Shown here: piece after piece, positions 1,986-60,092 of the stretch | Position numbering within the stretch: the first letter of the stretch is position 1 | Layout of the letters: each line of letters opens with the position of its first letter | From: Primula veris | Lineage: Eukaryota; Streptophyta; Magnoliopsida; Ericales; Primulaceae | Direction of reading: 5' to 3' | DNA length: 64,000 nt | NCBI GenBank assembly: GCA_963682055.1 | Contig: OY821750.1 | Coordinates: 10,852,501-10,916,500 of the forward strand | The notes under the pieces: generated by a model | The model's input: only the letters and a program-made list of their open reading frames with translations | Databases searched by the model: none | What the model was told of the DNA's origin: nothing | Position numbers and translations under genes: made by a program

Positions 1986-4656
1986 AATTAAACAAACAAT
2001 TGTCACCAAATATACTATCCATGTATGCTTAGTAAGATAGCTTATTAAGATCTTTTAAATATATTTATTTCTGATAGTGGTAAATGAGTTATTCTGTTAG
2101 ATTATATTTCCATGTCTTTATAGCTCTTGAGATATTGAAGTTGTAATAGCTTGTGATGAGAATAACAGAACGACTAAATTCCTTTCTCGGCCTTAATGTA
2201 TTCATCAAATTTAACAAAAGTCAACGGAAAAAACAAGGTAGCGAGCATCCGTATTTGTTTTCTCAAAACATATTTTTTTTTAAAATTTGATAATTATGGT
2301 ATAAAAAGTGACATGTATCAGCAACCCTATAAATTCACTAAATTTAAGTAAACATAAAATTCACCTTATATGATTTAATAGATTAATATAATACTAATAA
2401 ACTATCGTGTGGTTTCACATTTTTGTGATTGTAATATTGTTATGATTATTAAATAATAATAAACAAATAAAAAAAAATAATGTATGATTATTATAAGAAA
2501 ATTAATAAATAAGCTGGAATTTTGTGTAAATGCAAACGGTTTTTTAAAATATATAAAATGTGTTAGTTTTGATAAAATGATTGACCTATGTTACGGATCT
2601 AGCCAGTATCAACAGTAAAAAAAAATCTATATTACGAAGGAATACGGGAATAGTTAGTACACTTAAAGTAGCAAACGGAACAACAAATCACCAAAAGTGC
2701 AAACAATATATATACACACCAGCTCATTTAATGTCACCAAAAAGGTCTATAAATCGATCATACTCCAACTACCAACTTTCAACTTTAATTATTTTTATGT
2801 AGCCTTTTGGTGTAATTGTTTCCACAATATCTGTTTAATATAACCATATCAACAACTCTTTAATCTTTATTTAAAAATACCCTACTCCGACCTTACTATT
2901 CTTATCTAATTCCTTATATTTTTAAACACTCCAATATTATATCTTTTTTGTTATACAAGCGTCAAAAAATTTCCTTAATGGACGTCATGGATAAAAAAAA
3001 AATAGCAAAAAGTTGTTCATTCTTTATACTTAATAGTTTAAAACTCCCAATCTGAACATGCATATGGTAAACATAGTTTGATATAAGAAATCCTACAAAT
3101 CAGTCGGTCAAATAAAAACAAAAAATGAATCCAAAATGGGACAATGCACGAAACATACAATTAATCAAAATATATTACCAACTGAAGAGACTGTAGAGAC
3201 CAATCGAAGAGAAAATAGAATAACGTAAGTACCAAATTTTACATGAATACCAATACAGATCATACCTGTAATGATTAATCAACGCTACCAAACAATAACT
3301 AGATAAGTTTATAAGATCAATTGGGATATATATCATTGGGTCTTTATTAGAGTAGTCTTAAATTTTCAAATTTTTACCTCAATTCTAGTTTTTTTTTTTC
3401 CAATTTAGTCGGATTCGATCCGATTTTGGATGGAAAACGGACATCTGCACACCACGTGCCTTTTTTAGGAGATTTTACTTAAACGCCCTTAAGTGGTTAG
3501 CTAATTACCAAATGTAAAATAAAAGTTAATAGCAAGTTATAAATATTTACAAACATAGTAATAATAAATACTACATCGTTTAAAAATATAATAGTAAAAC
3601 AAAAACAAAAAAAAAAAATATGTTGAATTTACGGTTCTAAAAGTTTAAACCGGTGGATTGTTATGATCTAATCCTACAATTGAAACACAATGTATATATG
3701 TGTGAAGTATAAAATATCTATAAATGTTAAATCTAACCACGAAAAGAGCATTCACATATGCAAGTTTTGCATTCAAACTCACTAAATTCGTCCTAAAAAG
3801 AAATTATGGTGAAGTTGAGATACAAAACTGAAAAAATTAGAATTAAGATTACAAAATTAAAAAAAATATATGGGTACAAAAGCTGATAAAACATTAATTT
3901 TGCTTGTCTATCGTCAGGCAAAACACCAAATAAAATATCTGTCAAAGATTTTACAGGAAAACATCTCAATCAGTGCTGCAGGTAATTTTTAACTTATAGA
4001 AATATACCAAAAACTCTCTGTCTATATATATATATATTTATAGTGTCACTCCCTCAGTTTTGAACATAGTATAAAATTGTATATACATAGAAACACATAC
4101 ATTCATAGATAGAAACATATGTATACATGTAAGTATTACTGAGAACTCTTAGTCCAAGAAAAACCCCTTTTTAGGGTTTTGGTAACTTTTAGGTAAATAT
4201 GACAGAAAAAGAAAATAAAAATGTAACTTTAATTTATACAATGTGGCCTATACATGTCATTGGTTTCAAATAACGTATCTTTGTAGTCAAATAGGCCAAG
4301 GGTAGTGTTTTTTTTAATAAAAATAATGGGCAGAGGCGGGTTTTTTGACAGACAAGTCATCTAGAGCGCAGTTCAATCGAGACGGAAAATAATAAAAATA
4401 GAAATGAGAAACGATGTCGTTTTGTCTGAAAATTACAGAAATTTTAAATCTTCTATTACATAGTGACCTCGTTCAGCGATGTCGTTCTATGGTTAAATGA
4501 TACTCCGTATTTGTTATTTTAAATATGTTGTCGAGTTGATTTTGTTCTGTGGTGTTTCTTTTTCCTTTCCGTGTCATTATTTTTTACTATGACGGAAAAA
4601 AAGAAATTAAGGAGTTGCTGGGGTGCTAATGTGGCTTCGGCCAGCACTGATAATGG
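1986..4656. other. AT-rich intergenic sequence, possible LTR remnant at left edge
   Basis: No coding region, RNA gene or clear element ends were found. About 1981-2220 probably contains what is left of the Copia 3' LTR. The remainder is AT-rich with poly-A/T runs and scattered short ORFs of no recognisable family. Confidence 0.5.
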
Positions 4657-43990: not shown

Positions 43991-43995
43991 GATAC

Positions 43996-44210
43996 TGTTG
44001 TATTACATATTAGCTAGATATGGAGATATGGAGATACAAGTATAGAGAGATAAAAGAGTCGTCTTTTATTCATTGATAAGTGTAGGGAAGTTACATCAAG
44101 ATACCCCCTAACCTTCTTTATATAATAGAAGCTAGGGTTACATATGCTAGGAAAGCCCAATAGAGGCCCAATAGAGTAAGGCCCAAGATGGCCAATAATA
44201 TCCTACAACA
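43996..44210 (-). repeat. 3' LTR (minus-strand element)
   Basis: 215 bp, identical to 50638-50852. It begins TGTTGTATTAC and ends TCCTACAACA on the plus strand. Confidence 0.95.
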
Positions 44211-44221
44211 CTCCCCCTTTG
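44211..44221 (-). other. Polypurine tract of the minus-strand Copia element
   Basis: ctcccccttt directly abuts the left LTR. On the minus strand it reads aaagggggag, the primer site for plus-strand DNA synthesis. Confidence 0.75.
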
Positions 44222-44299
44222 GACGTCTTGATTTCTTCGTCTTCATGTTGTCGATCTGAATCGAGTTCATTCGCAATGCTAATCACATAAAAACCTTAG

Positions 44300-44720
44300 G
44301 GCCGGAAAACCCAGTGTGGGACAAAACCGGTACCTAGGAGAAACTGTGTAGCCGAATGATATAGGCCGAAATATCATGTAAGTAACTAACCACAAAACAG
44401 TGTGCCTCATCAAAACCTTGCCAGAGCAAACCCAATGGGAAAATCTCTGATCGAAGGAAAAAAGAGTGCAACAATGGTAGTAGTAGGGATCAACCACAAA
44501 ACAGGTGCCTCATCAAAACCTTGCTAGAGTAAACCCAATGGGAAAAACCTCTAGTCGAAGGACAAAAGAGTACACAGTGGTAAGAAGTATACAACAGGAT
44601 ACTCCCCCTAATTTCGGCAATCTTAAGTGAGATAAGATGGGAACGTGTCTCGCTAAAAACCTTGCCAAGGAAAACCCAGTGGGAAAAAACCTTGGTCTAA
44701 GGACAAAAAGAGTACACGAG
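44300..44720. repeat. Degenerate tandem units with AACCTTGCCA...AACCCAATGGG
   Basis: The motif aaaaccttgcca, gagcaaacccaatggg, then agaaggacaaaa-agagt recurs at about 44412, 44515 and 44657 with a spacing of about 100-140 bp. A fourth, weaker one is near 44300. It lies in the 3' noncoding part of the element. Confidence 0.8.
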
Positions 44721-45243
44721 CATACGACTGGATGCTCCCCCTCACTTGCACACGAGAGGGTGCGAAGATTTCGACTAAGTAGTAATTAGTTCAATAAGCA
44801 TTCACCTGGATGCTCCCCCTCACTTGCACACGACTGGGTGCAAAGATTTCATATTCCAAGAAAGAGTACGAGCATTCGACTGGATGCCTCATTTACTTAC
44901 ATACGACTGGATGCAAGAAAATCTAATGTGGAATAGAACGAGCATTCAACTGGATGCTCTTAAACTTCATTTGTGAAGATTAATTTCGGCGAGAAATGCT
45001 AAATAACATAATGTAGTCATGTCTCTCTTGATCAATAACAACAAGTTGTCTTCTATGACAAGTGTTTTATCTGGATTGTGAGACAGAACATATGTAATTC
45101 AAATATGACTAATACTAGCTCGAAGCCATATACACTCTCTAGTCGTCTCATAGAGCACGAATAGATCAGAGTGATTCACTTGGAGTCATTCCAAGACCTC
45201 CAAGATGTCGCCTTATTCCTAATGGTAAAGACATACCATGTTA

Positions 45244-45291
45244 GGAATATCCCTTATGCGGGTCTGATAAGTAACCGGCATCGGTATAACC
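45244..45291 (-). pseudogene. Copia RNase H relic
   Basis: On the minus strand this reads GYTDAGYLSDPHKGYS followed by a TAA where relatives have glutamine. It is the RNase H DAGYLSDPH block of a Copia lineage widespread in plants. The flanking sequence in the same frame is broken. Confidence 0.8.
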
Positions 45292-46659
45292 GAAAAAGGG
45301 TTGCGTTAATTCGAGTACCGAAGGGGGTAGGTACACTCGATGACGCAAATGGGATAAACTAGCCCACTTCCAAAATTACCATAAGGTAAGGGAATGTGTC
45401 TTTAGTGCCATTTCGATGGCAGCGTGTTAGCGCGATGTTGTGTCGAGCTATACCATTCACAACAGACGAGATGTTCGTCCTAGCACATTAGACCAAGTAC
45501 AATGATGCGCTTATTGTACTTAGATATGAACATTATGGTTCAATATCTCTTCATCGTCTCATCAGGGACGGACTGGGTCTATATCAATGTCTAGTGATCG
45601 AACGATCATGGGAGAATCTGACGACTTAGCGTCATGATGACTAAAACGTCATAACACCTTCTGGGTGTAGTCTGAATCATGGACTTAGATTCAATATTTA
45701 CGGGACTCAATCATCAGGTTGAGTCACTACCGTGTTTTCCCAATATCCTTCATCTCGAAGGCAAATCCAAAAATGGATCGCGTAATAAAACACGCAAGGG
45801 CATAATACTTGTTCAAGTATCCCAAGCTAATCAAGTACTCACTTAGGCGGTATACCACATCCGCTCGGATTATATTAATCCATATAGTGAACGTCTCAGT
45901 CAATTGAGATCGTGTTCCGTGGTCAGAAACTACTTGATTTAAGCATTATGAAGTCACACAGGGACCTTCATCTATATCGCTTTGTCTAAATCCCCATAGA
46001 GATAAAACTGTGACCACATTCATGGCTGCATACTCAGTTTTTCGGAAACTACTAAACTGGTAAAGTAGGGGACTGTTATAATGTCCATTACGAAGAAATC
46101 AACCATCTCGTAATCAATTCCAAGGTGTGAGAGAAGCCTTGCGCTACTAGGCGAGCATTCTACAATCTCATTATTCTCATCACTTTTCCTTACGAATAAC
46201 CAAATAAACGAACTCGTTTAACATTGGTGGTGTTGGAACTACAGGTCCGAACACACTTTCGCTAAGGAGTCTACTTGGATTGCAAGTTTCCATTAGTACA
46301 GTCTATTCTACGTTGACTTCAGGCAACGGTACATGGTTCTCTGTCATAATTTGTTCATATTATCAGTCGTCACCGAATATATGAACAAGTAATCAATGGC
46401 AGTCTCGTTTCGCTTCAATATCGTCTAAGATATCATGATCGACAGATATTTCGAGATTCTTAGGATGAGGAGGAAATCACACATCTCCTTGATCCTTTAT
46501 AATCTCGTGCAACAAACGAGTTTCAGTTCACCACCTCTGGGGCTGAACGAATTAAGAACCGGTCAACTTCCTCATATCTTGGGAAGGACGACAGACTGAC
46601 GGCCGACGACAGCGTCCTTTGCTTGGCGGGTTCGGCCAAAGCAACGTGTTACGACAGGA

Positions 46660-46757
46660 ACACGGCGTCCGACAGGGACGTCTATCCTTGCAAGCATTTT
46701 GCAGCAGGTATAAATGATCTCGTGACATCTCATAAAGTCATTAAATGCGTCTGGCAT
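46660..46757 (-). pseudogene. Copia pol linker relic
   Basis: A minus-strand frame gives MPDAFNDF and ARIDVPVG, matching the LPDAFTD...ARIDVPVGQ segment that follows integrase in the same Copia lineage. Downstream the frame departs from the family consensus. Confidence 0.7.
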
Positions 46758-46879
46758 TTAGTTAGACTTGAGGGAGTCTATGCACTTACTTATCACTAAG
46801 TGCAGTTTTGGGATCAAGCTAAGACTGAGTGGGTTATGCCACGTTACTTCACGTCGTTCCTTATCAACGGTAACGTGCA

Positions 46880-47520
46880 AATCTCCCCCTAACGACGGGG
46901 AGAACAGTCTTAGCGGTGTCACTTTCGCATATCATGCGGTAAAGAGATCGCTTGCCAAGGTTACTCTATCAAATGATAGGCAGGAGATTCATAATCGACT
47001 TATGTCCCCTTCAGGGGTCCATATTTTGAACGCTATAGCGGCTCAATCAAAATATTAATTAAGCACTCCAAACACGCGTTAATATGAGACTTCTGGCTCA
47101 TAACCAGTAACCAGCTGGTACGCATATGGTGTTTGAGTGTCTATGGGCCTCATAACGGACCAATGCAGCGAAATAGCATAACCCCACACGGAAATATAAA
47201 TCTTGGTGCGCAAGACCAAGAAATGCGTGCAATCATTTGCAGTCGCATCATCAAACTTTCCGTGAGTCCATTTGGGTCTGAACATAATCGACAGGATGTT
47301 CAATTTCAATTTCCAAACTCAAGTAATTCAAATCGAAATTTCGATTATTACTCTTCGGAATTATCAAGTCGGCTAGACTTTTCAGGATAATCCGGATCAT
47401 GGGCCATCAACTTAATGATAGGGCTAAAAGTTTGGAAAGTGCTGCATTTATGTGGACAACATTAAAATGTGACCAAATTGTCGATGCATCAACCATAACC
47501 ATTTATATTTATGGTCCGTC
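46880..47520 (-). pseudogene. Copia integrase relic
   Basis: Minus-strand pieces in shifting frames: MVMVDASTIWSH near 47500, SSRLDNSEE near 47370 (catalytic D of RLDNAGEF retained, catalytic context lost), NGLTESLMMRLQMIAR near 47270, and KYGPLKGT-stop-VDYESPAYHLIE near 47000. They follow the order of a Copia integrase core. At least several stops and frameshifts separate them. Confidence 0.8.
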
Positions 47521-50500
47521 TTATGGTTGGATAAGTCCACAATAACTCCTTCAATTCTTTACAGGAATTCTACGAGTTCATTTCGTGATCTTTACACATA
47601 CTAGTCTTTCAAAGTTAGCATTAATGGCTTGAATTTCGGATTAATCACGAAATATATTCTCAGAGAGAATCCAAATGCGATGCGATTATAAATCAAGCAT
47701 CGTCTTTTGACCCGGGAATATCTCATCCGGTCAATGCCACAATATCAAAATGCTCTTATCAATCGACGACAGGCGAATGATAGTACAGACAATCATGTCT
47801 TAGCATTTAAATCATTTATCATTTTGACGACAGGCGAAATGATAAGGTAACTTTAAATGATTTAAAGAATGTGGTAGCAACCACTTGAAAGACATTTCAA
47901 CTCCTCTAAAATACGCTTTTGGTCGTATTGAATGGAGGCTATGTAAAGAAATTTCAATTCTTTTATGAGCTATTACCAGATAACACTGGTTTTCTCGAAT
48001 ATTTTATAACTCAACAAGGTACGGCAGGACCTACATGAGTATAAGACCTCATATTTGACAAATCAATTTGGTTTTACCAAAGATTTCGATTTGGAACGAC
48101 AGGTCCAGAATCGTTGTCACTGAGTACTCTTTTAGGCATATAGTTGGTGAAATTATGTGGTACACTGTTACCCACTATTTCCAAAAAAATCAACTACCCC
48201 ACAAGTATTGCCTAAAATTTCATAATTTAAAGTTTGGTCACATTTGTCAAAGGAATTTGCTCAAAACACTTTAAATTATTTCGAGAAATTTCGTAAACAG
48301 GCAAACCATAATCCAAAAGTATGTCCAAATGGAAAAATCATATTCCAAATGGAAAAACATAATCCAGATGAGCGAAAAATGGCTCAATGATTTATCAAAA
48401 TCAATAAAGAAAGGTATCAAACTCATTTGAGCCACAAAACTGGGGGTCTCAAGAGTTTCCTTTCAGTTAGCTTTAACCACATTAGCATCGGTTTTTGCAC
48501 CTTTGTAATAGTTTTGAACTATTTAAGGAGTAACCGTGCATGACCTTTGTCTTTATAGCATAGAGTTGCCTCATTGAGCATTATCTCTTGCTTTGTGACA
48601 ACGAGCCATATTGTTCCTTTCAATTACTGTCTTGGAGCCACAGGTTTTCGATTTTAACGATTGTCTAAAATCTTGCTTGGCTAGGCGATTCATCGGGATC
48701 GCGACAGTTCGAGACAAATAACACTTGTCTCGGTTCTCGATTCGTGGAAAAAAAATGTACACGAAGAGCATTAATATCAGGCAAACAATTCGCCATTGAC
48801 CCAATAGGATTAAAACTACTCACCGGGGTAATTTTCTTATCCAATAACAGATGGGCGATAAAGGAACATGGTGAATATAAATTCACGATACTGCTTATGG
48901 AATACAATTTCCAAGCTAGTATTTTGGTGAATGATTGCTCCAATATGTCAATTTCAGACATTTGTTCACCATAGACTCATCACGTCTCAAATGTGGCGGC
49001 GGAATAAAATCAACGCCTTAGCATTCATCCTGAGTGTAACAACAAACTCGTGTTTACTCATCAAAGATGGCATCCAAAAAAAATTTGGGCATCACATTTT
49101 CACACATCAGGGTGACTAACATGTGGTGACGGAATAACATCAATGTCTAAACAGTCATTTCGCAAGTATGTTTTGCGATTTTTCTCATCATAGATGGCAT
49201 CCAACCTGTGTTGGGAGTTCTGAATTATTTTTCATATAAAACGACTGGTTTATATGTTTATGGTTTGCACAAGCACAAACTTTTTTCCGAAACGACAGGT
49301 TCGAAAACATTAGTTTTGCTTCTCATGTGAATCGGTTCTCATTGATCGAACGACGGGTCGATACTGAAACACCAATTCGGCGAAACATACATCACTATAT
49401 AAACACACTCGGGGAAATTATTATTTAGTCAACCCCTTTCGGTAGCTCTACTTGAAAAACGACCAGGAAAGACGGTGAGGGTGGAGGGCACGAATGCCAC
49501 TTAAAACCCGACCTCATTAGGATATCGACTTCCGCCTATATCTTTCCTAGACATCGTATCCAAATAGGTGAGCCTAGTTGGGGAAGGTTCATAATTTTTC
49601 CAACTTAAATGTGAAAATATATGATTTCGCAAATTTACATGTTGTACATATATGTATATGGCAGTAAATAAATATTACATGACATATTATGTAGTATCAT
49701 ATATACATGGCAGTGAGTATTATTTTGGCAATATAAACTAATTCAATTAACATGTAAGTAATTACTACACTGAATCAAAAATATATACTCATCCGCATAC
49801 AATTAATATACTACAGGACCATACATGTAATTTCAGTAAACTACTTATTTAAGTTACAGCATTATTACACAGGGAGTCCAGAAAATCTGGAGTGTTTCAG
49901 ATTGATTCATTTTATTTTTGAATTAACAGATCTGGTTCTACAGGTTTCTACACGTGAAATTGTTTTTTTTTTCTTTTAAACACGACAGAGCTGTTTTATC
50001 TTTTAAACACGACAGAGCTGTAAGTACACGGGTAGTATATTTAAATCAATTCAATTAAACTTTACCCTGTAAACAAATAGCAATATGACATGCAATATTG
50101 TTCTCTAACAAGACCAATTATAGGTTTCTTTATTAAAAAAATAAAATATGCAACTTGTTCTCATGGATGATTTACACCTATGCAATTTCAATCATTATAT
50201 GTTAACCATCAGTAGATTTTTATATGTTAACCATCATTATATGATTTACACGTATACACATAAGTAGATTTTTTTTTTTTTTTCAATCAGTAGATATTCC
50301 TGTTTACCTATTGGTTTTATTGGGAATAGTTTATTGCATACTCAACATATATTATGAGGTTTAACATCACATACATACAAACAGTGAGATTTTCTAAGGT
50401 AATATCACTCCTATTAGATATATATATTTTAGCAGCACACTAAATATCATGAGTTCAAGTTCCAGTAAACTGAAAAATAAGGGGATTCGGTAATTGTACC

Positions 50501-50604
50501 GGATTACCAAGTGCTCCAACGATTGATCAGAACAAGAACGAACAAAACCCTAGCCGTCTTTTTTTTTTTTTTTTTTTTTTTAAACCTATTCAACGAGCGT
50601 ATAT

Positions 50605-50637
50605 CCTGGTTTCTCCGTGAGCAAGGTGCTGATAACG
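50605..50637 (-). other. Primer-binding site region of the minus-strand Copia element
   Basis: On the minus strand the sequence after the 5' LTR is cgttatcagcaccttgctc. GTTATCAGCACC resembles the initiator-tRNA-Met complement TGGTATCAGAGC used by many plant Copia elements. Confidence 0.65.
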
Positions 50638-50852
50638 TGTTGTATTACATATTAGCTAGATATGGAGATATGGAGATACAAGTATAGAGAGATAAAAGAG
50701 TCGTCTTTTATTCATTGATAAGTGTAGGGAAGTTACATCAAGATACCCCCTAACCTTCTTTATATAATAGAAGCTAGGGTTACATATGCTAGGAAAGCCC
50801 AATAGAGGCCCAATAGAGTAAGGCCCAAGATGGCCAATAATATCCTACAACA
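50638..50852 (-). repeat. 5' LTR (minus-strand element)
   Basis: 215 bp, identical to 43996-44210. On the minus strand it holds TATATAAAG (promoter-like) and AATAAAAG (polyadenylation-like) motifs. Confidence 0.95.
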
Positions 50853-51236
50853 GATACAAAATTATAGCAGACCTACGTACCACCGACTAAAATGTTAAAA
50901 TTTAAAATTATCAGTATTTTGGTGGTTTTCTTATTAATTTGATCAAAAGAGTAATTAAAAGCATTTACTATACTTTTGTTAATTTTAATAATATTAACTT
51001 TAATATATTATCATTTAATTGCATGATAAATGACGCATGTGTAATTTAAATTTAACTTTCACATTAGTGTATTAGCTTAACAAAATTATCTAATTTTAAT
51101 TAAAATTAGGAGAGAATTAATATAAACATATCATACACCTATTATATTAACAAAAATATACCCTCAAAAATTAAATTATCAAAAACATACATTGCATTAA
51201 TAATTAATAAAAAACAAAAAAGTTCATTCATCGCTC

Positions 51237-51685: not shown

Positions 51686-51734
51686 ATTTGTTAACTAGTG
51701 TATAAAGTTAAAAAATATGTGTATGAATTTCGTG

Positions 51735-52050
51735 AATTAAGTGTATAAAGTTGAAAATTATGGATATGAATTATGTAAATAACAATATGAATTCTGTATA
51801 TTGCGGTATGAACTTTAAAAATAAAGGTGAACTTTACGAATTAGGCTATGAACTTTTGAAATAAGGGTATGAACTTTTGAAATAAGGATATGAAAATATA
51901 TAAATTAGGGTATGAACTTTTGAAATAAGGGTACGAACTTTTGGAATAAGGGTATGAACTTTTAAAATAAATGTATGAAAAAATACAAATTATGGTATGA
52001 ACTTTTGGAATAAGGGTATGAAATATACAAATTAGGATATGAATTTTTGG
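51735..52050. repeat. Minisatellite with gggtatgaacttttgaaataa units
   Basis: About ten imperfect copies of a unit near 21 bp (gtatgaacttttgaaataag, ending varied as aaattagg) follow the exon-like ORF. Confidence 0.85.
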
Positions 52051-52199
52051 TTATGTTTTTGTTAATTAGAAATTTTTAGGTATATATTTTTGTTAATTTA
52101 GTTTCAAAAATAGTATGTTTTGTTAATTTATTCTAAAATTAATTATTAATTGAAATCTCATTAATTAGTCATTTTGTAAGCCCCCACTAAAATAGGAGT

Positions 52200-52719
52200 A
52201 TTTGAAATAGAGTTCACGTTGTGATTAATGGTATTTTGCCACATAATCAATTAATAACATTAAAAACATTGTTATTTTTAACAACTTTTTTAAAATCTAT
52301 AAAGATAACACATGATTTAATATAAATAATGAAGACAGAAAAATACATTGTTAGCTAACTATTTTATTTAACAATAAATATAACAACACTATTATAGATA
52401 CTCTAAAAATTGTGATAGAAAATATGCACAAATATAGGCGTCGGTGTTGCCATCGTGGGTGAAGAGAGAAAATAGTTATCTTAGATATAGCATGCGCCTA
52501 TCCATTAAAAGATGATTTTTGGGTAAATTTTGGATTGGTATCTTATGTAGAACTTAATTAAGGATTGCTCAATTAAACTGAAATTAATTAAGTATTGGTC
52601 TATTTTCCATAACTAACCAATAAAAATGTAAAAAATAAGAAAAAAAATTCCAAAAAATCTAAAATCAACAAAAATCCAAAAACGCAAAAAAAAAAACCTA
52701 GTCCGAGTCGTCTTAATTC
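52200..52719. other. AT-rich spacer
   Basis: No gene or element recognised. Confidence 0.45.
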
Positions 52720-53640
52720 ATATTAAAAATAGTCTCTGAGTCATTTTAAAAATAGTCTGAGTCATTTTAAGTCACTTTAAAAACAGTCTGAGTCGTTTTA
52801 AGTTATTTTAAAAATATTCTGAGTCGTTTTAAGTCATTGTAAAAACAATCCGAGTCGTTTTAAGTCATTTAAAAACAATCTGAGTCGTTTTAAATCATTT
52901 TAAAAATAGTATGAGTTATTTTAAAAACAGTATGAGTCATTTTAAGTCATTTTAAAAACAGTCTGAGTAATTTTAAAAACAATTTGAGTCATTTTAAGTC
53001 ATTTTAAAAATAGTCTGAGTCATTTTAAGTCATTTTTAAAACAGTCTGAGTAATTTTAAAAACAGTATGAGTCGTTTTAACTTATTTTAAAAACAATTTG
53101 TGTAATTTGAAAAACAGTCTGAGTCATTTTAATTTCTTTGAAAAACAGTCTGAGTCGTTTTAAGTCATTTTTAATACAGTCTGAGTCATTTTAAATCATT
53201 TTAAAAATAGTCTGAGTAATTTAAAAAATAATTTGAATACTTTTTAAAACAGACTGGGTCATTTTAAATCATTTTAAAAATAATCTGAGTCGTTTTCAGT
53301 CATTTTAAAAATAGTCTTAGTCATTTTCAATCATTTTAAAAATAGTCTGAGTCATTTTCAGTCATTTTAAAAACAGTCTGAGTAATTTAGAAACAATATA
53401 AGTAATTTTAAAAATAGTTTGAGTTATTTTAAAAACAGTCTGAGTAATTTAGAAATAATATAAGTAATTTTAAAAACAGTTTGAGTTATTTTAAAAACAG
53501 TCCGAGTCATTTTAAAAACAGTATGAGTTATTTTAAAAACAGTCTGAGTCATTTTAAGTAATTTTAAAAACAGTCCGAGTCATTTTAAAAATAGTTCAAG
53601 TCATATTTAAATCATTTGAAAAACAGTATAAGTCATTATC
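52720..53640. repeat. Large minisatellite, aaaaacagtctgagtcattt units
   Basis: Around 900 bp is built almost entirely from agtctgagtcattttaa and ttttaaaaac modules, in copies of about 20-35 bp with variants (agtatgagt, aatttgagt, gtcgttt). All units read in one orientation. Confidence 0.92.
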
Positions 53641-53779: not shown

Positions 53780-54450
53780 TGTTAGCATACCCTCGTCTGG
53801 GCCCATACCGTCCCATAATTAGTGTGTCCGGGCCCCTGCCACCCATGAGTGACACATCACCCCGGACACCGAGGGGCCGAGGTGTGACTACACCGGCCTA
53901 GGAAGCGTATCAAGTACGCTTCCCCAATTAATGATGCTGCTCCCGTGGGGGACCCCTCAACATTTCATCGACGTGGCCCAATCACAGGCCATTAACTGTG
54001 GACCCCGGAAAAGGACTGTACCCTTGTCAGAGTCATAAATGACCTAACGTCGTCGGATTAGTGCTTGACAGTACAGTGATCCAAGGGCTAATTACACCTC
54101 TGGATCACACTATAAATACCCACACTTATACTACTTAGTAGAGGGACAGAAAAAAGAGGAGAAGAGAGATAAAGCTGAAACAACTCGGGCTGCTAGAACA
54201 CACCCAGTCAAATCTAATACCACGCTTCGTAACCGGAACGATCCCTCTTACCCTTCAACTAGATAATCCATTCTAGTCGCCACCATACTGACTTGATCGT
54301 TGGAGAGGGAAAACCTGGTACCAATCCCGGGCTCCTGTTTGTTCCTTGTGCAGGCACGAGAAGGACCCCGTCAACGAAGCTGCCCACCTCGTACGGAGCC
54401 GACGCGTGCTGTTGAATAAGCCAAGCCTAGGAAGAAAAATAGGCTCGCCA
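53780..54450 (+). repeat. 5' LTR of the gypsy element
   Basis: It begins TGTTAGCATACCC and ends GGCTCGCCA immediately before the PBS (671 bp). It contains TATAAATA at 54111-54118, preceded by a GC-rich region, as expected for the U3/R boundary. No second copy lies in the window, so its left edge rests on the TG end and the change in composition. Confidence 0.75.
54111..54118 (+). promoter_or_regulatory. TATA box in the gypsy 5' LTR
   Basis: TATAAATA lies in a CACAC-flanked context about 340 bp before the end of the LTR, the expected position of the retroelement promoter. Confidence 0.7.
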
Positions 54451-54451
54451 A

Positions 54452-54467
54452 TTGGCGTCGTCTGTGG
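54452..54467 (+). other. Primer-binding site of the gypsy element
   Basis: ttggcgtcgtctgtgg resembles the tggcgccgtctgtggg-type PBS common in plant Ty3/gypsy Tat-group elements. It differs at the second CpG-like position (gtc for gcc). Confidence 0.75.
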
Positions 54468-54516
54468 AAAACGTGTAAAGAACGCGTTAGCTCTGACAAT
54501 CCGTCCTCGAGAAAAC

Positions 54517-56128
54517 ATGTCTGATAATAACCAGTACGACACCCCGTCGTCCCGACATACCCCGGTATTTGGAATGCCAAGAACCCTATCTTTCGACACC
54601 CCTCTGAGAACTACACCCGTTAGGGAACCAATCCCCCTAATGGCAGTACCCGGAACACCCGGGTCAAGCGACGAGCTGGCTCGCATGATGCTCGAGATCT
54701 ACAAAAAGGAGCTCATTGCGTTAGCAGCACAAAGAGCATTGATAACTGCGAGGATGACACCGGATACCGAACCTGTCGCGAGCGGTACGGCACGACCGGA
54801 GCCAGTTCCTGCTAAAAGCGTGATGTCATGCTTGGGACCTCCGAGACGACCCCCCCTAGATGCTCCTGATGAGCCATCTAGAGGAGAGGAGTCGAGGCGT
54901 TCCCACGAAGGGAATTCCCGCCATGACGGCGAGTGAAGCGTGTACTCGTGGCTCCGCTGGCCGGATGACGATCATGACTCACGACCGGGGTCGAGTCGTG
55001 CATGAACCGACAAACCTCCTCGAACGTGAAGGCGAGGCTGTCATGCTGGGCAAAACGATGCCACCGACGAGGCAGCATTAAAAATCGTAGCCTCCACCCA
55101 CAGCACCCCGTTCTCAGACGAGATCGAGTACAGTACCCCCCCCCCCCAGAAACTTCGTCGCCCCAATCCTTCAGATCTTCAATGCAGACTCCGATCCGGA
55201 GGCTCATCTCCGACACTATTGATACCAGATGAACCACTGGTCCCACCTTAACCAACTAATCTGCAGATGTTTTCCCGCCAGCCTGGGGAGGTTGGCTAGT
55301 AAATGGTTCCAGTCCCTGCCCGCCAACTCCATCGACTGTTGGGATGACCTAGCATACGAATTTGCGCACCAGTTCATCAACTTGAAAGAAAGGGTTGCCC
55401 AACCAGAGCACTTATACCAAATAAGGGCCCAACCCAAAGAGACCCTCGAGAGCTACGACACTAGGTTCTGGCAAAAGCATGCGGAGTGCGCCGAGTGTCC
55501 CGATTCTACTGCCATAGCTGCTTTTAGGCAGAACATGGTCGTAGGAAGCAGAATCCGCAACGAAATGATAGCGACCCCTCCTAGCACGGTTTTCCGGCTC
55601 AGGTCACTAATAAAGCAGCATGTCGATATTGAGAATGACATGAGATCTGCCGGGGCAATTCGTTCGGTCGCCAGCATCGAACAGCCCTGTGAAAGGACCG
55701 TTGTTAGGAGCCCTCGAAGAAACCGGCCCATAACAGAGAGAATAGAACAGCCCCAAATGGGAAGGAATCCACAACCGGCCCCCAAAAGAAGAAAAGAAGA
55801 CCCCCGTTGGATTAACCCTTCGGACCCGGGGACTGCCTACTCCACCACCTTTCGCCTTCCACTGATCGACCTCTTGGGCAAAATAGAGAACGAGCCTTTC
55901 TTCTCCTGGCCTCTCCCACTCCGAAACGAACTGACCCATGGGCCCGACGATAAAATTTATGACTATCACAGAGGTCGTGGCCATCATACCAACGAATGTG
56001 ATGGTCTGAAGGCGAGGCTTGAAGGATGGGTCCGAGATGGCCTGATGGATAAATACATCAGGTCACGAAGGGACTCTGATCGAGGACGAGAAGGGGCCGA
56101 TGAAAGGCAACCAGACCTCCCCCACTGG
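54517..56128 (+). pseudogene. Gypsy gag, frameshifted
   Basis: The frame from 54517 (MSDNNQYDTP) is proline-rich and ends at 54936. The retrotransposon-gag domain appears in another frame from about 55190 (FPASLGRLASKWFQSLPANS, LAYEFAHQFINLKER, ESYDTRFWQ), so one or more frameshifts separate them. Near the end, YDYHRGRGHHTNEC is the zinc-knuckle-like motif of Tat gag, with the first cysteine replaced. Its stop overlaps the start of the protease frame. Confidence 0.85.
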
Positions 56129-58070
56129 TGATGACCTGTCAGGTTATTCACTATGGACCAAAGAAACCCAATCCTAGTGGAGCGGAGAGGACTGAAGCCC
56201 TTAAGTCCGCGATGAAGCAGCATGTCTACCTCACCGAAAGTCCGAGCCCCTGGAAGAAGGGGAAGCGCGATTCCAAGCTGGACCTGACCATCACCGACTT
56301 CGACTTAGTGGGAGTAGACCTGCCCCACTGTGATGCCCTTGTCATCTTTGCCCAAGTTGGCCATTGTGTCGTGGGACGGATCCTGGTCAATCAAGAGGCA
56401 TCGGTGAACATACTCTTTGGAGACCTCTTCCACAAAATAGGGCTAAAAGAAGAGCACCTAGAAACCAACGTCCCTCCCCTGTACGGATTCAACTCTGAGG
56501 CCGTTCAGCCCAGAGGGGACATAACCTTGCCCGTTAAAACGGGAACCAAGGTTATGAGCGTGGAGTTCACGGTGGTGGATGTCCCTTCCGTCTACAATAT
56601 CATACTAGGGCATGCATGGCTTCACGAAATAGAAGGCGTCTCCTCCACTCTGCACCAAAAAGTCAAGTACCCGATTATAACTGGAGTAGAGACCATCTCC
56701 AGAAACCAAAAAGTCTCGCGAAGCTATGCCATGGCCGTGTACTCCGGCGAAAAGCCGGTACCGGTCCAGAGTGCCATGAATATTGAGGTAGAGGACCCTA
56801 AGCTACTAAGGGAGCTGGACAAGAAGATGGGGCCAGAAGCTGAAGACAATATAGAAGGAGGACTGCTGAAGATCCAAATCCCAGGATTGGACGAGGACAA
56901 CTTCTTCATGGTGGACGCGAAACTAAGCGAGCCCGAGATCACCGATCTTGTTGAGCTCCTGCTCCAGTACCTAGATAACTTTGCGTGGACCCCGAGTGAA
57001 ATGCCGGGTATCAGTCCCGACCTTGCTTGTCACCAACTGAACGTCAACCCGGATGCCAAGACCGTGATGCAAAAGGGACGACGTGTCAGTCCAGAGCATG
57101 CCGATGCCATAAACGAGGAGGTGCAAAAGCTTCTGTTGGCCGGGGCCATCAGAGAAATCTATTACCCCAGATGGCTTTCTAACACTGTAGTAGTCCCTAA
57201 AAAGAACGTAAAGCTATGCGTGTGCATCGACTACACAAGTCTTAATCGGGCCTGTCCTAAAGATCCTTTCCCCTTGCCCAAAATCGATCAAATAGTGGAC
57301 TCCATGGCCGAAGCTGCCAAAATGAGCTTCCTGGATGCCTGCTCCGGCTATCATCAAATACCCATGTCGGAAGCGGACCAAGAGAAGACTGCCTTCATAA
57401 CCCCAAGGGGAAATTACTGCTACAAAGCGATGCCTTTCGGGCTCAAGAACGTCGGGGCAACGTATCAAAGAATGGTCACCAAGATCTTCTCTAAAAACAT
57501 AGGCCGGGCCATGGAGGTCTACATCGATGATATGGTGGTGAAGAGCACTCGAGAGGAGGACCACCTGTCTGACCTAAGAGAGGTATTCGAAACCATCCGA
57601 AGGCACGGACTAAAGCCGAATGCTTCTAAGTGCGCCTTTGGGGTAGGGGCCGGCAAGTTCCTAGGGTTCATGGTAACCCATCGAGGCATAGAGAAAAACC
57701 CGGACCAAATCTCTGCCTTGATGAACTTAAGAACCCCCGGAAAAAAAAAGGACAGACAAAAGCTAGCCGGCATGGCAGCCGCCCTCAATCGATTCATTGC
57801 CCAGTTCGGAGACCGGTGCAAACCTTTCTTTACGGCCCTAAAGGCTCAGAAGAAGTTCGAGTGGAACGACGAATGCCGGAGTGCTTTTACTGAGCTCCCG
57901 AACTACCTCGGGAGCGCGCCCCTATTGACGAAGCCCGACACCGGCGATGTCATCGTCTTATATCTGGCCGTGTAGGATATAGCTGACAGCACGGTCCTCG
58001 TCAAGGAGCTCGGCAGGGAGCAAAGGCCTATTACGTAAGTAAGACCCTCCTCGATGCCGAAACTAGGTAT
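56128..58070 (+). pseudogene. Gypsy protease, reverse transcriptase and RNase H
   Basis: The open frame 56128-57975 contains the protease site region as LVNQEASVNILF; where active copies have D-x-G the aspartate and glycine are N and E (codon at 56389). Reverse transcriptase follows: LSNTVVVPKKN, SFLDACSGYHQIPM, GLKNVGATYQRM and YIDDMVVKS (57520). The first RNase H begins but meets a TAG at 57973. Further on, a base loss near 58035 shifts the frame before YVSKTLLDAE-type sequence. Confidence 0.9.
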
Positions 58071-60092
58071 ATGCCCCTTGAAAAGCTCGTCCTAGCCCTC
58101 GTTATGGCCTCGAGAAAACTAGCTCATTATTTCTCGGCATATAGTATCGTGCTATATACCGATCAGCCCGTTCGAGAAATACTTCAAAAAGGGGATCTAT
58201 CCCGACGGATCACAAAGTGGGCCTGCCACCTAAACGCATACGATATCCGCTACGAACCACGGACGTCCGTCAAGGGACAAGCCTTAGCCGACTTTGTGGC
58301 AGAGTTCACCGTCGCTGACATAACGATCCTATGTCCCGGGGCTGAGGAGTGTAACCGAGAAACTTGGATCCTGCATATAGATGGAGCCGCCAATAAAAAA
58401 GGATCTGGCCTCAGCGTTGTGCTCCGATCTCCACAAGGTGACGTGATCGAAAAGTCAATCCAACTTGGTTTCCGAGCTACCAACAATGAGGCGGAGTATA
58501 AGGCCGTCATCGCCGGCCTAAAAATGGCGCGTAGTCTTGGGGTCAAGAAAATACTCGTTAGCACTAACTCCCAGTTAGTCAGCGGCCAGATAAGTGGGGA
58601 GTTTCAAACGAAGGATGAGAGAATGGCTCTCTACGTGGCCATCGCCTCTGGGATACTCCGAACCTTCGACTATCAAAAAATCATCAACATCAACAGGAAC
58701 GAAAACTCTCATGCCGATGCCCTAGAAACCCTAGCCTCGACGATAAGTGACAAACGAGAAAGAATCATCACAATAGAGTATGTCCCTTCGCCTAGCATCG
58801 ACACTAAACCAAAAATCAACGTGGTGACCGACTTCCCACCGGAGCAGAGTTGGATGGACCCTATAATCGTGTACCATAACTCCGGCAATCTACCCGATGA
58901 TAAAAAAGAAGCTGAAAAAATAAAGAGGAAGGCACTCGGATTCTGGCTGGCTCCGAACGAAAAGCTTTACAAGAGGTCGTTCTTCGGGCCCTACCTGCTC
59001 TGCGTTCACCCCAACATGGTTCTAAAAGTCATGGAAGAAATACATGAAGGGACGTGTGGAAGCCATACCGGGGGCAGATCACTGGCCAACCGAGCTCTAA
59101 CCCACGGTTACTGGTGGCCCCTCATGCAAAAGGATTCAAAAACATTCGTGCTCAGATGTGAGAAGGGCCAGAGGTACGCTCCCATACCTCGAGCTCCGGC
59201 ACAAAAAATGAGCAGCATGACCTCCCCTTGGCCATTTGCACAATGGGGGATGGACATCGTGGGACCATTCCCTAGGGCCCTGGGGGGGAAAAGGTTCCTC
59301 CTCATGGTCACTGACTACTTCTCAAAATGGGTGGAGGCCGTGGCATTAGCTAAAATAACGGAGGCCGAGGTGATCAGATTCCTCTAGAGGGATGTGATCA
59401 CGAGATTTGGAATCCCATACTCACTAGTCGCGGACAATGGGGGCCAGTTCACTAGGGCTAAGATAAAAGCGATGTATGCAAAGTATCACATCAAGAGCTA
59501 TTATTCCACCCCTTCGTATCCCCAATGCAATGGGCAAGCCGAGGTGTCGAATAAAACCGTGCTCGACGGAATCAAGAAAAGATTAGACGGGTCAAAAGGA
59601 CGATGGGCCCACGAACTCCAGCATGTCCTGTGGGCATACCGAATAACAAGAAGGCGGGGCACCCAAGAGACCCCCTATAGCCTGACTTACGGGATTGAAG
59701 CTGTCATCCCGTTAGAAATCGGGCTCCCATCTCTGAGGACCGACATGGTGGAAAACGGGCTGAATGAAAGGATGATGGGACTCGAGCTAGACTATGCCCA
59801 AGAAAGAAGAGAGGTTGCGGCCATCCGTAACGCCGAGTATAATAACGAGCTGGGACGTTCCTATAACAAAAGAGTGAACGCCAAACGTTTTCAAGACAAA
59901 GACCTCGTGCTACGGAAAGTGAACAACAACTCGAGGGTACAGTCCGATGGAAAGCTAGGCCCCAACTGGGAAGGACCTTATCGAATCCTCGGAGCAATAG
60001 GAAGCGGACCCTATCAATTGGGTCGCCTCCCCAACGACACCCCGGTGGATCGAACTTGGAACATCAACAACCTTAAGAAGTACTATCAGTAG
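58071..60092 (+). pseudogene. Gypsy archaeal-type RNase H and integrase
   Basis: The frame 58071-59387 starts in the first RNase H connection (EKLVLALVMASRKLAHYF). The second RNase H follows with ILHIDGAANKKGSG, NNEAEYKAVIAGL and VSTNSQLVSGQ, where the catalytic D of SDSQL is N (58566). The integrase zinc motif HEGTCGSHTGG...RCEKGQR lacks its last cysteine. The core has WGMDIVGPFP, VADNGGQFT and CNGQAEVSNK with its D, D and E present. An in-frame TAG at 59385-59387 interrupts it; the rest runs 59394-60092 and ends NINNLKKYYQ. Confidence 0.9.

Follow-up and report, generated by a model that had tools for sequence, protein, structure and literature searches.

The window analysed here is a stretch of 64,000 nucleotides (64 kb) of Primula veris DNA (assembly GCA_963682055.1, contig OY821750.1, positions 10,852,501 to 10,916,500). 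Its minus strand carries, at 43996-50852, a full-length long terminal repeat (LTR) retrotransposon of 6857 bp (6.86 kb), and this element is host to an array of small hairpins. The arms of these hairpins vary jointly around a constant loop, far beyond chance, and structure is well supported. The element and its parts are listed below, with open reading frame abbreviated as ORF, reverse transcriptase as RT and amino acids as aa.

43991-43995 (no strand): target-site duplication GATAC (5 bp), left copy
43996-50852 (minus): full-length LTR retrotransposon without a long ORF (LTR pair; ORF and Pfam scans)
43996-44210 (minus): 3' LTR, 215 bp, TGTTGTA...TACAACA, identical at 215/215 positions to 50638-50852
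44211-44220 (minus): polypurine tract (PPT) AAAGGGGGAG, immediately before the 3' LTR
44590-49640 (minus): hairpin-rich interior, decayed copia gag-pol (fold z, conservation between copies, tblastn remnants)
45193-45297 (minus): decayed region that we take to be RT C-terminal or RNase H-like, the domain name being presumed and not from Pfam (tblastn 44% over 36 aa, E 0.001)
45858-46211 (minus): decayed RT region (tblastn 37%, 123 aligned positions, E 8e-12)
47067-47541 (minus): decayed integrase region (tblastn 25-38% aa against coding relatives)
50626-50637 (minus): primer-binding site (PBS) CGTTATCAGCAC, pairing with the tRNA-Ile(AAU) anticodon arm if A34 is inosine
50638-50852 (minus): 5' LTR, 215 bp, starting TGTTGTA and ending TACAACA, 215/215 identical to the 3' LTR
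50853-50857 (no strand): target-site duplication GATAC (5 bp), right copy

An intact reading frame in the element was ruled out by ORF and Pfam scans: no ORF of at least 150 aa lies within it, and 18 of its 30 stop-to-stop ORFs with 55 aa or more were scanned and gave no convincing Pfam match (best E 0.0037, below the cut-off). Because remnants of integrase, RT and an RT/RNase H-like region turn up in order when open segments from coding relatives are used as tblastn queries, the interior is a worn-out gag-pol, and its origin as a separate non-coding module is ruled out; the RT similarity extends into 45643-45849 (E 9e-9). The initial annotation had described the element as Copia-derived, which these remnants bear out, and as dead, which is true of its coding capacity and not of its mobility. 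Its two LTRs are identical, and a 500-bp interior query against the genome (436.5 Mb in 34 contigs) gave 40 of 40 listed places, the window copy included, at 99-100% identity (40 scored of 2054 first-look candidates). Since the listed copies are this similar, the noncoding element has been amplified recently and heavily.

The interior is more conserved between copies than the LTR and leader, and it folds better than shuffled controls on both strands, the comparison that had been called for (18 segments, 45001-49251; z from -1.3 to -5.6 on the plus strand and from -0.8 to -4.9 on the minus strand). There is no Rfam match at gathering thresholds anywhere in the window, which excludes a known RNA family as the source of the hairpins. 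Searches of plasmid and phage DNA gave no match; an 18-base pattern from the window was found in viral contigs at 3 loci, whose ORFs appear phage-like and which blastn does not match to the element at E 1e-3.

A hairpin array around one loop core

The hairpins recognised in the element are given here in order from its 5' end.

49345-49362 (minus): 5-bp arms, plus-strand loop ACGACGGG (sense CCCGTCGT)
49288-49303 (minus): 4-bp arms, loop ACGACAGG
49233-49256 (minus): 8-bp arms, loop ACGACTGG
49100-49115 (minus): 4-bp arms, loop ACATCAGG
48685-48702 (minus): 5-bp arms, loop TCATCGGG
48092-48107 (minus): 4-bp arms, loop ACGACAGG; one arm pair A-T here, G-C in copies L042-L044
48017-48032 (minus): 4-bp arms, loop ACGGCAGG
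47816-47845 (minus): 11-bp arms including one G.T, loop ACGACAGG
47083-47102 (minus): 6-bp arms, loop ACTTCTGG
46742-46760 (minus): no bulge, 6 bp beyond the C-G pair, sense core CCAGACG
46666-46680 (minus): no bulge, 4 bp beyond the C-G pair, sense core CCTGTCG
46645-46664 (minus): 6-bp arms, loop ACGACAGG
46311-46328 (minus): 5-bp arms, loop ACTTCAGG, sense core CCTGAAG as in coding family B
45704-45725 (minus): 7-bp arms, loop TCATCAGG; in L045/L046 and L042-L044 both bases of an A-T pair are changed, giving G-C
45654-45668 (minus): no bulge, 4 bp beyond the C-G pair, sense core CCAGAAG
45555-45570 (minus): 4-bp arms, loop TCATCAGG
44940-44959 (minus): 6-bp arms, loop TCAACTGG
44872-44887 (minus): 4-bp arms, loop TCGACTGG
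44824-44843 (minus): 6-bp arms, loop ACGACTGG
44797-44814 (minus): 5-bp arms, loop TCACCTGG
44718-44737 (minus): 6-bp arms, loop ACGACTGG
44586-44603 (minus): 5-bp arms, loop ACAACAGG

The initial annotation had placed a stem-loop array at 44586-49362, with ACGACWGG as its loop and a right arm that exactly complements the left in every case. The array is real, and the quoted span and stems were correct when the coordinates were rechecked. ACGACWGG occurs 9 times in the window, always within the element (shuffle mean 1.1, maximum 4 in 100 shuffles), and 8 of the 9 are flanked by at least 3 Watson-Crick pairs around the 8-nt loop. The consensus is wider than this octamer: WCNNCNGG on the plus strand, and on the sense strand a CCWGNNG core that is mostly followed by one unpaired A/T. 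On the plus strand at 44211-50637 there are 29 WCNNCNGG sites, with at least 3 flanking pairs in 22 and at least 4 in 18; in 200 dinucleotide shuffles the corresponding numbers are 7.5 sites and, with at least 3 pairs, 0.16 (maximum 2). Exact complementarity throughout did not hold, as 7 of the 29 sites have fewer than 3 flanking pairs, several arms are just 4 bp long and a G.T pair lies in 47816-47845. Nor is there a single loop form, given the three hairpins without a bulge. Outside the element, none of 42 plus-strand WCNNCNGG sites is paired; on the opposite strand within it there is one site, unpaired.

The sense core CCWGNNG has 31 sites in the element. At least 4 perfect flanking pairs surround 19 of them; in 3 the stem abuts the C...G, and in 16 a single unpaired base follows the G, where 100 shuffles lead one to expect 0.05 and 0.04 paired sites, respectively. 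None of the 82 sites outside the element (both strands of the window) is paired, nor are any of the 3 on the opposite strand within it. The region at 54292-60092, also used as a control, contains LTR-retrotransposon coding ORFs (gypsy-type as judged by eye) and has 0 of 21 motif sites paired over both strands. The pairing thresholds (at least 3 or at least 4 pairs) were chosen by the analyst. The hairpin is likely drawn best as a C-G pair that closes a CWGNN pentaloop, with the A/T bulged on the 3' side in most hairpins of the window, a model that energy predictions fail to separate from an open 8-nt loop.

Covariation of the arms was examined with a partner-shuffle test, in which the 3' flanks were permuted 1000 times among sites and pairs were counted over the five nearest positions. 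Every CCWGNNG site, paired or not, was taken regardless of its flanks, and circularity is therefore avoided; the bulge register was fixed for each family (one base for the window element and its coding relative L043, none for the more distant coding family B, both described below). The window element has 107 pairs where 45 are expected (z 9.6, 31 sites) and L043 has 75 against 36 (z 7.7, 25 sites). Pooled, these two yield 55 distinct sites and z 13.4, and all four pair types are present at every position; family B (L051, L054 and L055 pooled) yields 46 distinct sites and z 9.9. For the 82 control sites outside the element, z is 1.3 with the bulge and -0.1 without it. Joint variation of the arms around a constant loop, the central claim of the initial annotation, is thus upheld.

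When all 256 cores of the form abNcNNd were ranked, CCNGNNG came first in each of the four elements tested, at 18 against 3 for the runner-up, 10 against 3, 8 against 3 and 10 against 2; this includes coding relatives, where loop enrichment had been proposed as a check. In the two other parts of the window (plus strand, one-base bulge only) CCNGNNG lies outside the top five, and AT-rich or other cores lead. For window positions 1-43990 it is AT-rich cores that head the list, the first with 44 of 642.

Tandem duplication contributes some units of the array, since one repeat is present twice, at 44719-44772 and at 44797-44850. Simple duplication was rejected as the full explanation, in agreement with the earlier view, since this repeat accounts for some units only. 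Mismatch types in long stems were too few to use.

Several other repeats have been seen in and around the element. A pair of AAACACGACAGAGCTGT copies (49978-49996 and 50005-50021), which lie outside the span first annotated, carry CGACAG in a 9-nt loop and are a relative of the motif in another register. Tracts of CTCCCCCT (sense AGGGGGAG) start at 44211, 44602, 44735, 44813 and 46883, all on one strand and identical in core to the PPT, and four of the five are no farther than about 0.6 kb from the 3' LTR and adjoin hairpins. Between the hairpin array and the PPT, at 44402-44687, a 42-nt repeat (AAAACCTTGC...CCCARTGGGAAAA) occurs three times. Outside the element, dense tandem repeats are found at 52691-53601 (spacings of 10/21/31 nt) and at 51697-52082 (21/43 nt).

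Coding relatives and change between copies

Relatives were sought in the same genome with the LTR-end/PBS string ACACGTTATCAGCACD, which has 1091 matches (reversed control, 0), and 30 loci (L012-L041) around the first of these matches were sampled. At 26 of the 30, the sequence no more than 1.5 kb from the PBS includes stretches of 122-1232 bp with 88-99% identity to the window interior; at L016, L019, L030 and L037 such a stretch was not found within that distance. The best-aligned part of the LTR at the same loci is mostly 69-77% identical to that of the window (L023, 80% over 94 bp). Because interior identity is this high and LTR identity mostly this low, the two parts seem to evolve or recombine separately at these loci. 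At L030 a 446-bp relative (92%) of the 44402-44687 repeat block adjoins the PBS string, apparently in opposite orientation.

Other copies differ in their distance from the window element. The interiors of L045-L047 are 94.5-96.5% identical to it, and L048, L049 and L052 carry an interior at 95-96%; L050 has little similarity. For L042-L044, interior identity to the window is 66-76% in the long aligned pieces and 88-89% in the part that corresponds to 49220-49631. Codon periodicity of substitutions was considered and set aside (L042 p 0.48, L045 p 0.50; the p of 0.024 for L047 comes from a few small blocks and is not trusted).

The L042-L044 copies are of coding type. The open frames of L043 span 343 and 1174 aa, and those of L042 and L044 reach 714 and 804 aa. 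In L043, Pfam finds in order Retrotran_gag_2, Pol_BBD, gag_pre-integrs, rve, SH3_retrovirus and RVT_2 (2.5e-52), the rve match being below its cut-off (1.1e-6, 29.2 bits against 32.6), and the Gag frame contains one CCHC knuckle, CYKCGGNGHMQRTC. Of 25 motif sites in L043, 10 are paired, 8 of them inside the gag or pol frames and 2 before the 343-aa gag frame. The opposite strand of each of L042-L044 carries 5 WCNNCNGG sites, of which 1 has at least 3 pairs and none has 4 or more. A 401-bp query from L042 gave 40 of 40 listed places at 99-100% identity (1417 candidates; coding status checked for L042-L044 only). Both noncoding and coding-type copies have thus been amplified recently.

The second coding family, B, consists of more distant copia copies (L051 with L053, L054 and L055), all somewhat degenerate. 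In Pfam searches, L055 matches rve and gag_pre-integrs, L054 matches Pol_BBD and SH3_retrovirus, and L053 matches RVT_2. L055 also has a gag-like frame of 230 aa that reaches no Pfam family; by tblastn it is similar to the gag region of L042 (33%, E 2e-42), and it contains a knuckle-like segment. The LTR-end/PBS string of the window element recurs in family B, without mismatch in L051 and with a single mismatch in both L054 and L055. The two also have in common the PPT/LTR junction AAGGGGGAG|TGTT, which was examined in L053 alone. Apart from one 39-nt match, there is no LTR or interior DNA similarity between them at E 0.01.

The leader of family B contains a run of hairpins with CCTGAAG-type cores and stems such as AATCATT, TTAATT and AACTA, about 24 nt apart in its first part, and this leader contains repeated units. 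The dense array of L055 lies at 895-1557, upstream of the gag-like frame at 1850. Paired sites number 12 of 20 in L054 and 8 of 20 in L055 (antisense, 0 of 2 and 0 of 3). Short GTGCACCWGAAGTGCA-type repeats are also present before the gag_pre-integrs region (L051, about 1300-1430; L054, about 3965-3995; L055, 3951-4053), and the hairpin core is therefore found in or beside coding sequence of family B as well. L056 and L057, taken as candidates for further coding relatives, have 0 of 4 and 1 of 14 sites paired. The array had been noted in the noncoding element, to which it is not peculiar: hairpins occur in L043 and in family B. A model of Gag binding predicts helper-like coding relatives, and these were found in the same genome with the same loop core.

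Between the window element and L042-L044, hairpin arms and loops change at different rates. Against a background of 20.9% differing bases, the figure is 12.4% for the arms (p 1.5e-5), 8.8% for the four fixed positions of the loop (p 7e-5) and 43% for its variable positions (p 4e-8). Near copies have a common ancestry, so that these base-wise counts are not independent, and the hairpins were defined on the window copy; the test was repeated per site, with 18 of 138 for the arms against a background of 647 of 3008 (p 0.018), 5 of 52 for fixed loop bases (p 0.039), 17 of 39 for variable loop bases (p 0.003) and 158 of 786 for arms of non-motif hairpins (not significant). Among 39 near copies, motif arms are also slower, with 15 of 216 variable sites against 539 of 3711 (p 0.001). 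In L042, homologous motif hairpins keep 56 of 70 pairs unchanged, compared with 2883 of 5209 random pairs. A covariation that extends to every hairpin of the element was rejected: between subfamilies, generic stems of at least 5 bp behave like random column pairs, and the covariation claim is therefore confined to the motif hairpins. It is important to emphasize that, because homologous double changes are few and hairpins turn over, the main covariation evidence lies across different hairpins rather than along single ones.

Lineage and known systems

The primer site of the window element points to the Bianca lineage of Ty1/copia. Among the plant copia lineages surveyed in the source, Bianca alone is described with a PBS complementary to an inosine-edited half-tRNA-Ile (PMC6317226). 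The PBS CGTTATCAGCAC (50637-50626) would pair at 12 of 12 positions with GUGCU(I)AUAACG, A34 being read as inosine. The tRNA-Ile(AAU) core has 16 matches in the genome, and one locus, confirmed as tRNA-Ile (aat), carries GTGCTAATAACG. The relatives described above also agree with Bianca in their copia gag and pol domains, with integrase before RT (PMC6317226); the window element differs in being noncoding. The word "hairpin" has no occurrence in the main text of the Bianca survey (PMC6317226), and searches of an open-access library, which does not extend to subscription papers and preprints, turned up no account of hairpins with a constant loop arrayed in Bianca or any other LTR retrotransposon.

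Structured noncoding retroelements are already known, because large retrotransposon derivatives (LARDs) and terminal-repeat retrotransposons in miniature (TRIMs) are described as carrying conserved RNA structures; like the window element, they have LTRs, a noncoding interior and an assumed trans-complementation (PMC7215508). The window element has the LTRs, PBS, PPT and large noncoding interior of a LARD, with an interior traceable to gag-pol. It differs in that this interior is recognisable as decayed gag-pol and holds many small hairpins of one core, common to coding relatives. The "super-hairpin" of Cassandra is described as one large fold (PMC7215508), unlike the many small hairpins here. 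Sireviruses are copia elements with repeated noncoding motifs and multiple PPTs, comparable to the five PPT-like tracts of this element, but their CGG-CCG palindromes are placed in LTRs or before env (PMC2829016) and the present hairpins are interior. The Sirevirus 9-mer tRNA-Met PBS TATCAGAGC (PMC2829016) is not matched by CGTTATCAGCAC, which is of the Ile half-tRNA type. Retrozymes are likewise non-autonomous plant LTR elements with a functional RNA structure, there hammerhead ribozymes in the LTRs; no Rfam family reaches its gathering score in the window. TARE1, which has another PBS (PMC3701649), and the TGTT/AACA elements of the Ale lineage (PMC5659011) were set aside as close systems.

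The nearest parallels come from packaging. Dispersed stem-loops that differ from each other and share one recognition motif are described as a hallmark of packaging signals in single-stranded RNA (ssRNA) viruses (PMC6281560); the present case differs in being an LTR retrotransposon, with a putative affinity for Gag. In Moloney murine leukemia virus (MoMuLV), the single zinc knuckle of Gag/nucleocapsid binds UCUG through its G, and this signal is, as here, a short pyrimidine-rich motif with an exposed final G in several copies (PMC7599994). It differs in that UCUG is a linker exposed on dimerisation, not an autonomous hairpin loop (PMC7599994). Ty1, whose Gag is also of the copia superfamily, selects its own genomic RNA, but Ty1 Gag is described as preferring a 5' pseudoknot and as lacking a zinc finger (PMC8396678). 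Compared with a retroviral-type Psi, which is placed in the 5' leader from PBS to gag, the dense L055 array has such a position and 8 of the 10 paired hairpins of L043 do not.

Possible readers of the hairpins

Since the hairpins are common to coding and noncoding members, they suggest a shared RNA tag, perhaps for packaging into particles. By analogy with viral signals, the array may represent dispersed, multi-site Gag-binding (packaging) signals of Bianca-type elements, used in cis by coding and in trans by noncoding members; this is the likeliest of the readings considered, and our judgement on it is evenly balanced. Each hairpin would comprise a variable stem and a C-G pair that closes it around an exposed CWGNN loop; on the sense strand the core is CCWGNNG, and a single A/T often bulges out behind the G. 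The hairpins would be lineage-wide, cis-acting RNA signals, placed in the 5' leader and across gag-pol in coding elements and kept in the window element after its coding decay. The reader would be the Gag encoded by Bianca elements of the same genome, with one zinc knuckle that contacts the exposed loop G of many hairpins simultaneously. Coding RNA would be packaged in cis and noncoding RNA in trans, and the packaged RNA would then be reverse transcribed from the half-tRNA-Ile primer. From the identical LTRs, the missing ORFs and the young coding-type relatives, we infer that the window element has probably been mobilised in trans by an autonomous element.

We infer Gag as the reader, packaging as the role and sense RNA as the acting strand. 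Gag recognition is favoured because the hairpins are common to coding and noncoding members, including a family otherwise little alike, because one family has them ahead of gag and the other throughout gag-pol, and because they outlast the loss of coding capacity, with a CCHC knuckle in the L043 Gag frame comparable to that of MoMuLV. Several results weigh against the packaging proposal. The sampling covers one plant genome and one copia lineage. In the near copies, arms of non-motif hairpins are nearly as slow as motif arms (77 of 911, p 5e-7), and fixed loop bases are no slower than background (17 of 84 against 539 of 3711). Double changes at homologous hairpins are few, unique events (far copies, 3 restored, 1 G.U and 3 broken; near copies, 1 restored). 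Single hairpins turn over: of 16 hairpin positions of the window (from 45559 to 49350), a recognisable loop is kept in L042-L044 at 8 and missing at the other 8 (by eye). The predicted pairing probability (within 100 nt on either side) averages 0.57 on the sense strand, with 11 of 19 above 0.5, and 0.68 on the antisense strand, with 13 of 19. G.U changes do not single out one strand either, with unique one-sided events at 7 sense against 4 antisense in near copies and 4 against 4 in far ones.

The main rival to Gag recognition is a host or other non-Gag factor that reads the same cis-acting RNA hairpins for nuclear export, stability, dimerisation, translation control in the leader or protection from silencing. 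The structural and sharing evidence fits such a reader equally well, the interior fold z is negative on both strands, and the L055 array sits in the leader before gag, where translation control would act too; we regard this reading as possible, if rather unlikely. Its forms are not all on the same footing: the noncoding element retains its hairpins, which argues against a pure role in translation, and simple kissing-loop dimerisation is unlikely because the loops are not self-complementary. Pairing probabilities and G.U counts, which do not single out one strand, also leave room for a signal that acts as DNA or antisense RNA, in cruciforms, in cDNA hairpins during reverse transcription or as small-RNA precursors. 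Stems of mostly 4-8 bp are short for cruciforms and for Dicer substrates, and with the negative Rfam result we hold this to be improbable.

Palindromes could arise without selection through template switching or hairpin-templated repair at a fixed motif, together with tandem duplication. Duplication does contribute, in the 44719-44850 repeat and in the repeated units of the family B leader, and hairpins turn over between subfamilies, with five positions (by eye) carrying the motif in L042-L044 only. A mutational process does not predict, however, that arms and fixed loop bases change more slowly and variable loop bases faster than background between subfamilies. The same core occurs with unrelated stems in two coding families, and none of the 82 sites elsewhere in the window is paired; this explanation is disfavoured and, to our minds, very doubtful. 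That any AT-rich, repetitive DNA would yield such hairpins by chance finds some footing in the general hairpin richness of the element, where hairpins with a 4-7 nt loop occur at roughly two to three times the expected number. The 22 motif hairpins against 0.16 expected and the retention of pairs by motif hairpins, where generic ones show no covariation between subfamilies, stand against it. Composition alone is refuted by the shuffles, the partner-shuffle test and the ranking of 256 cores, and we give it practically no credence.

To our knowledge, how RNA is chosen for packaging in plant LTR retrotransposons, and why their noncoding relatives are mobilised with such efficiency, are largely open questions. 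The fullest form of the packaging proposal is a lineage-wide, dispersed hairpin code, read by the lineage's own Gag and kept by a noncoding family after it shed its coding capacity; our confidence in it falls just short of the balance point. If true, it would extend the idea of dispersed packaging signals from ssRNA viruses to LTR retrotransposons, with multi-site signals in such an element and a clear rule for which noncoding RNAs are mobilised by its particles. A hairpin code this compact and machine-searchable would allow one to predict from sequence which RNAs enter particles.

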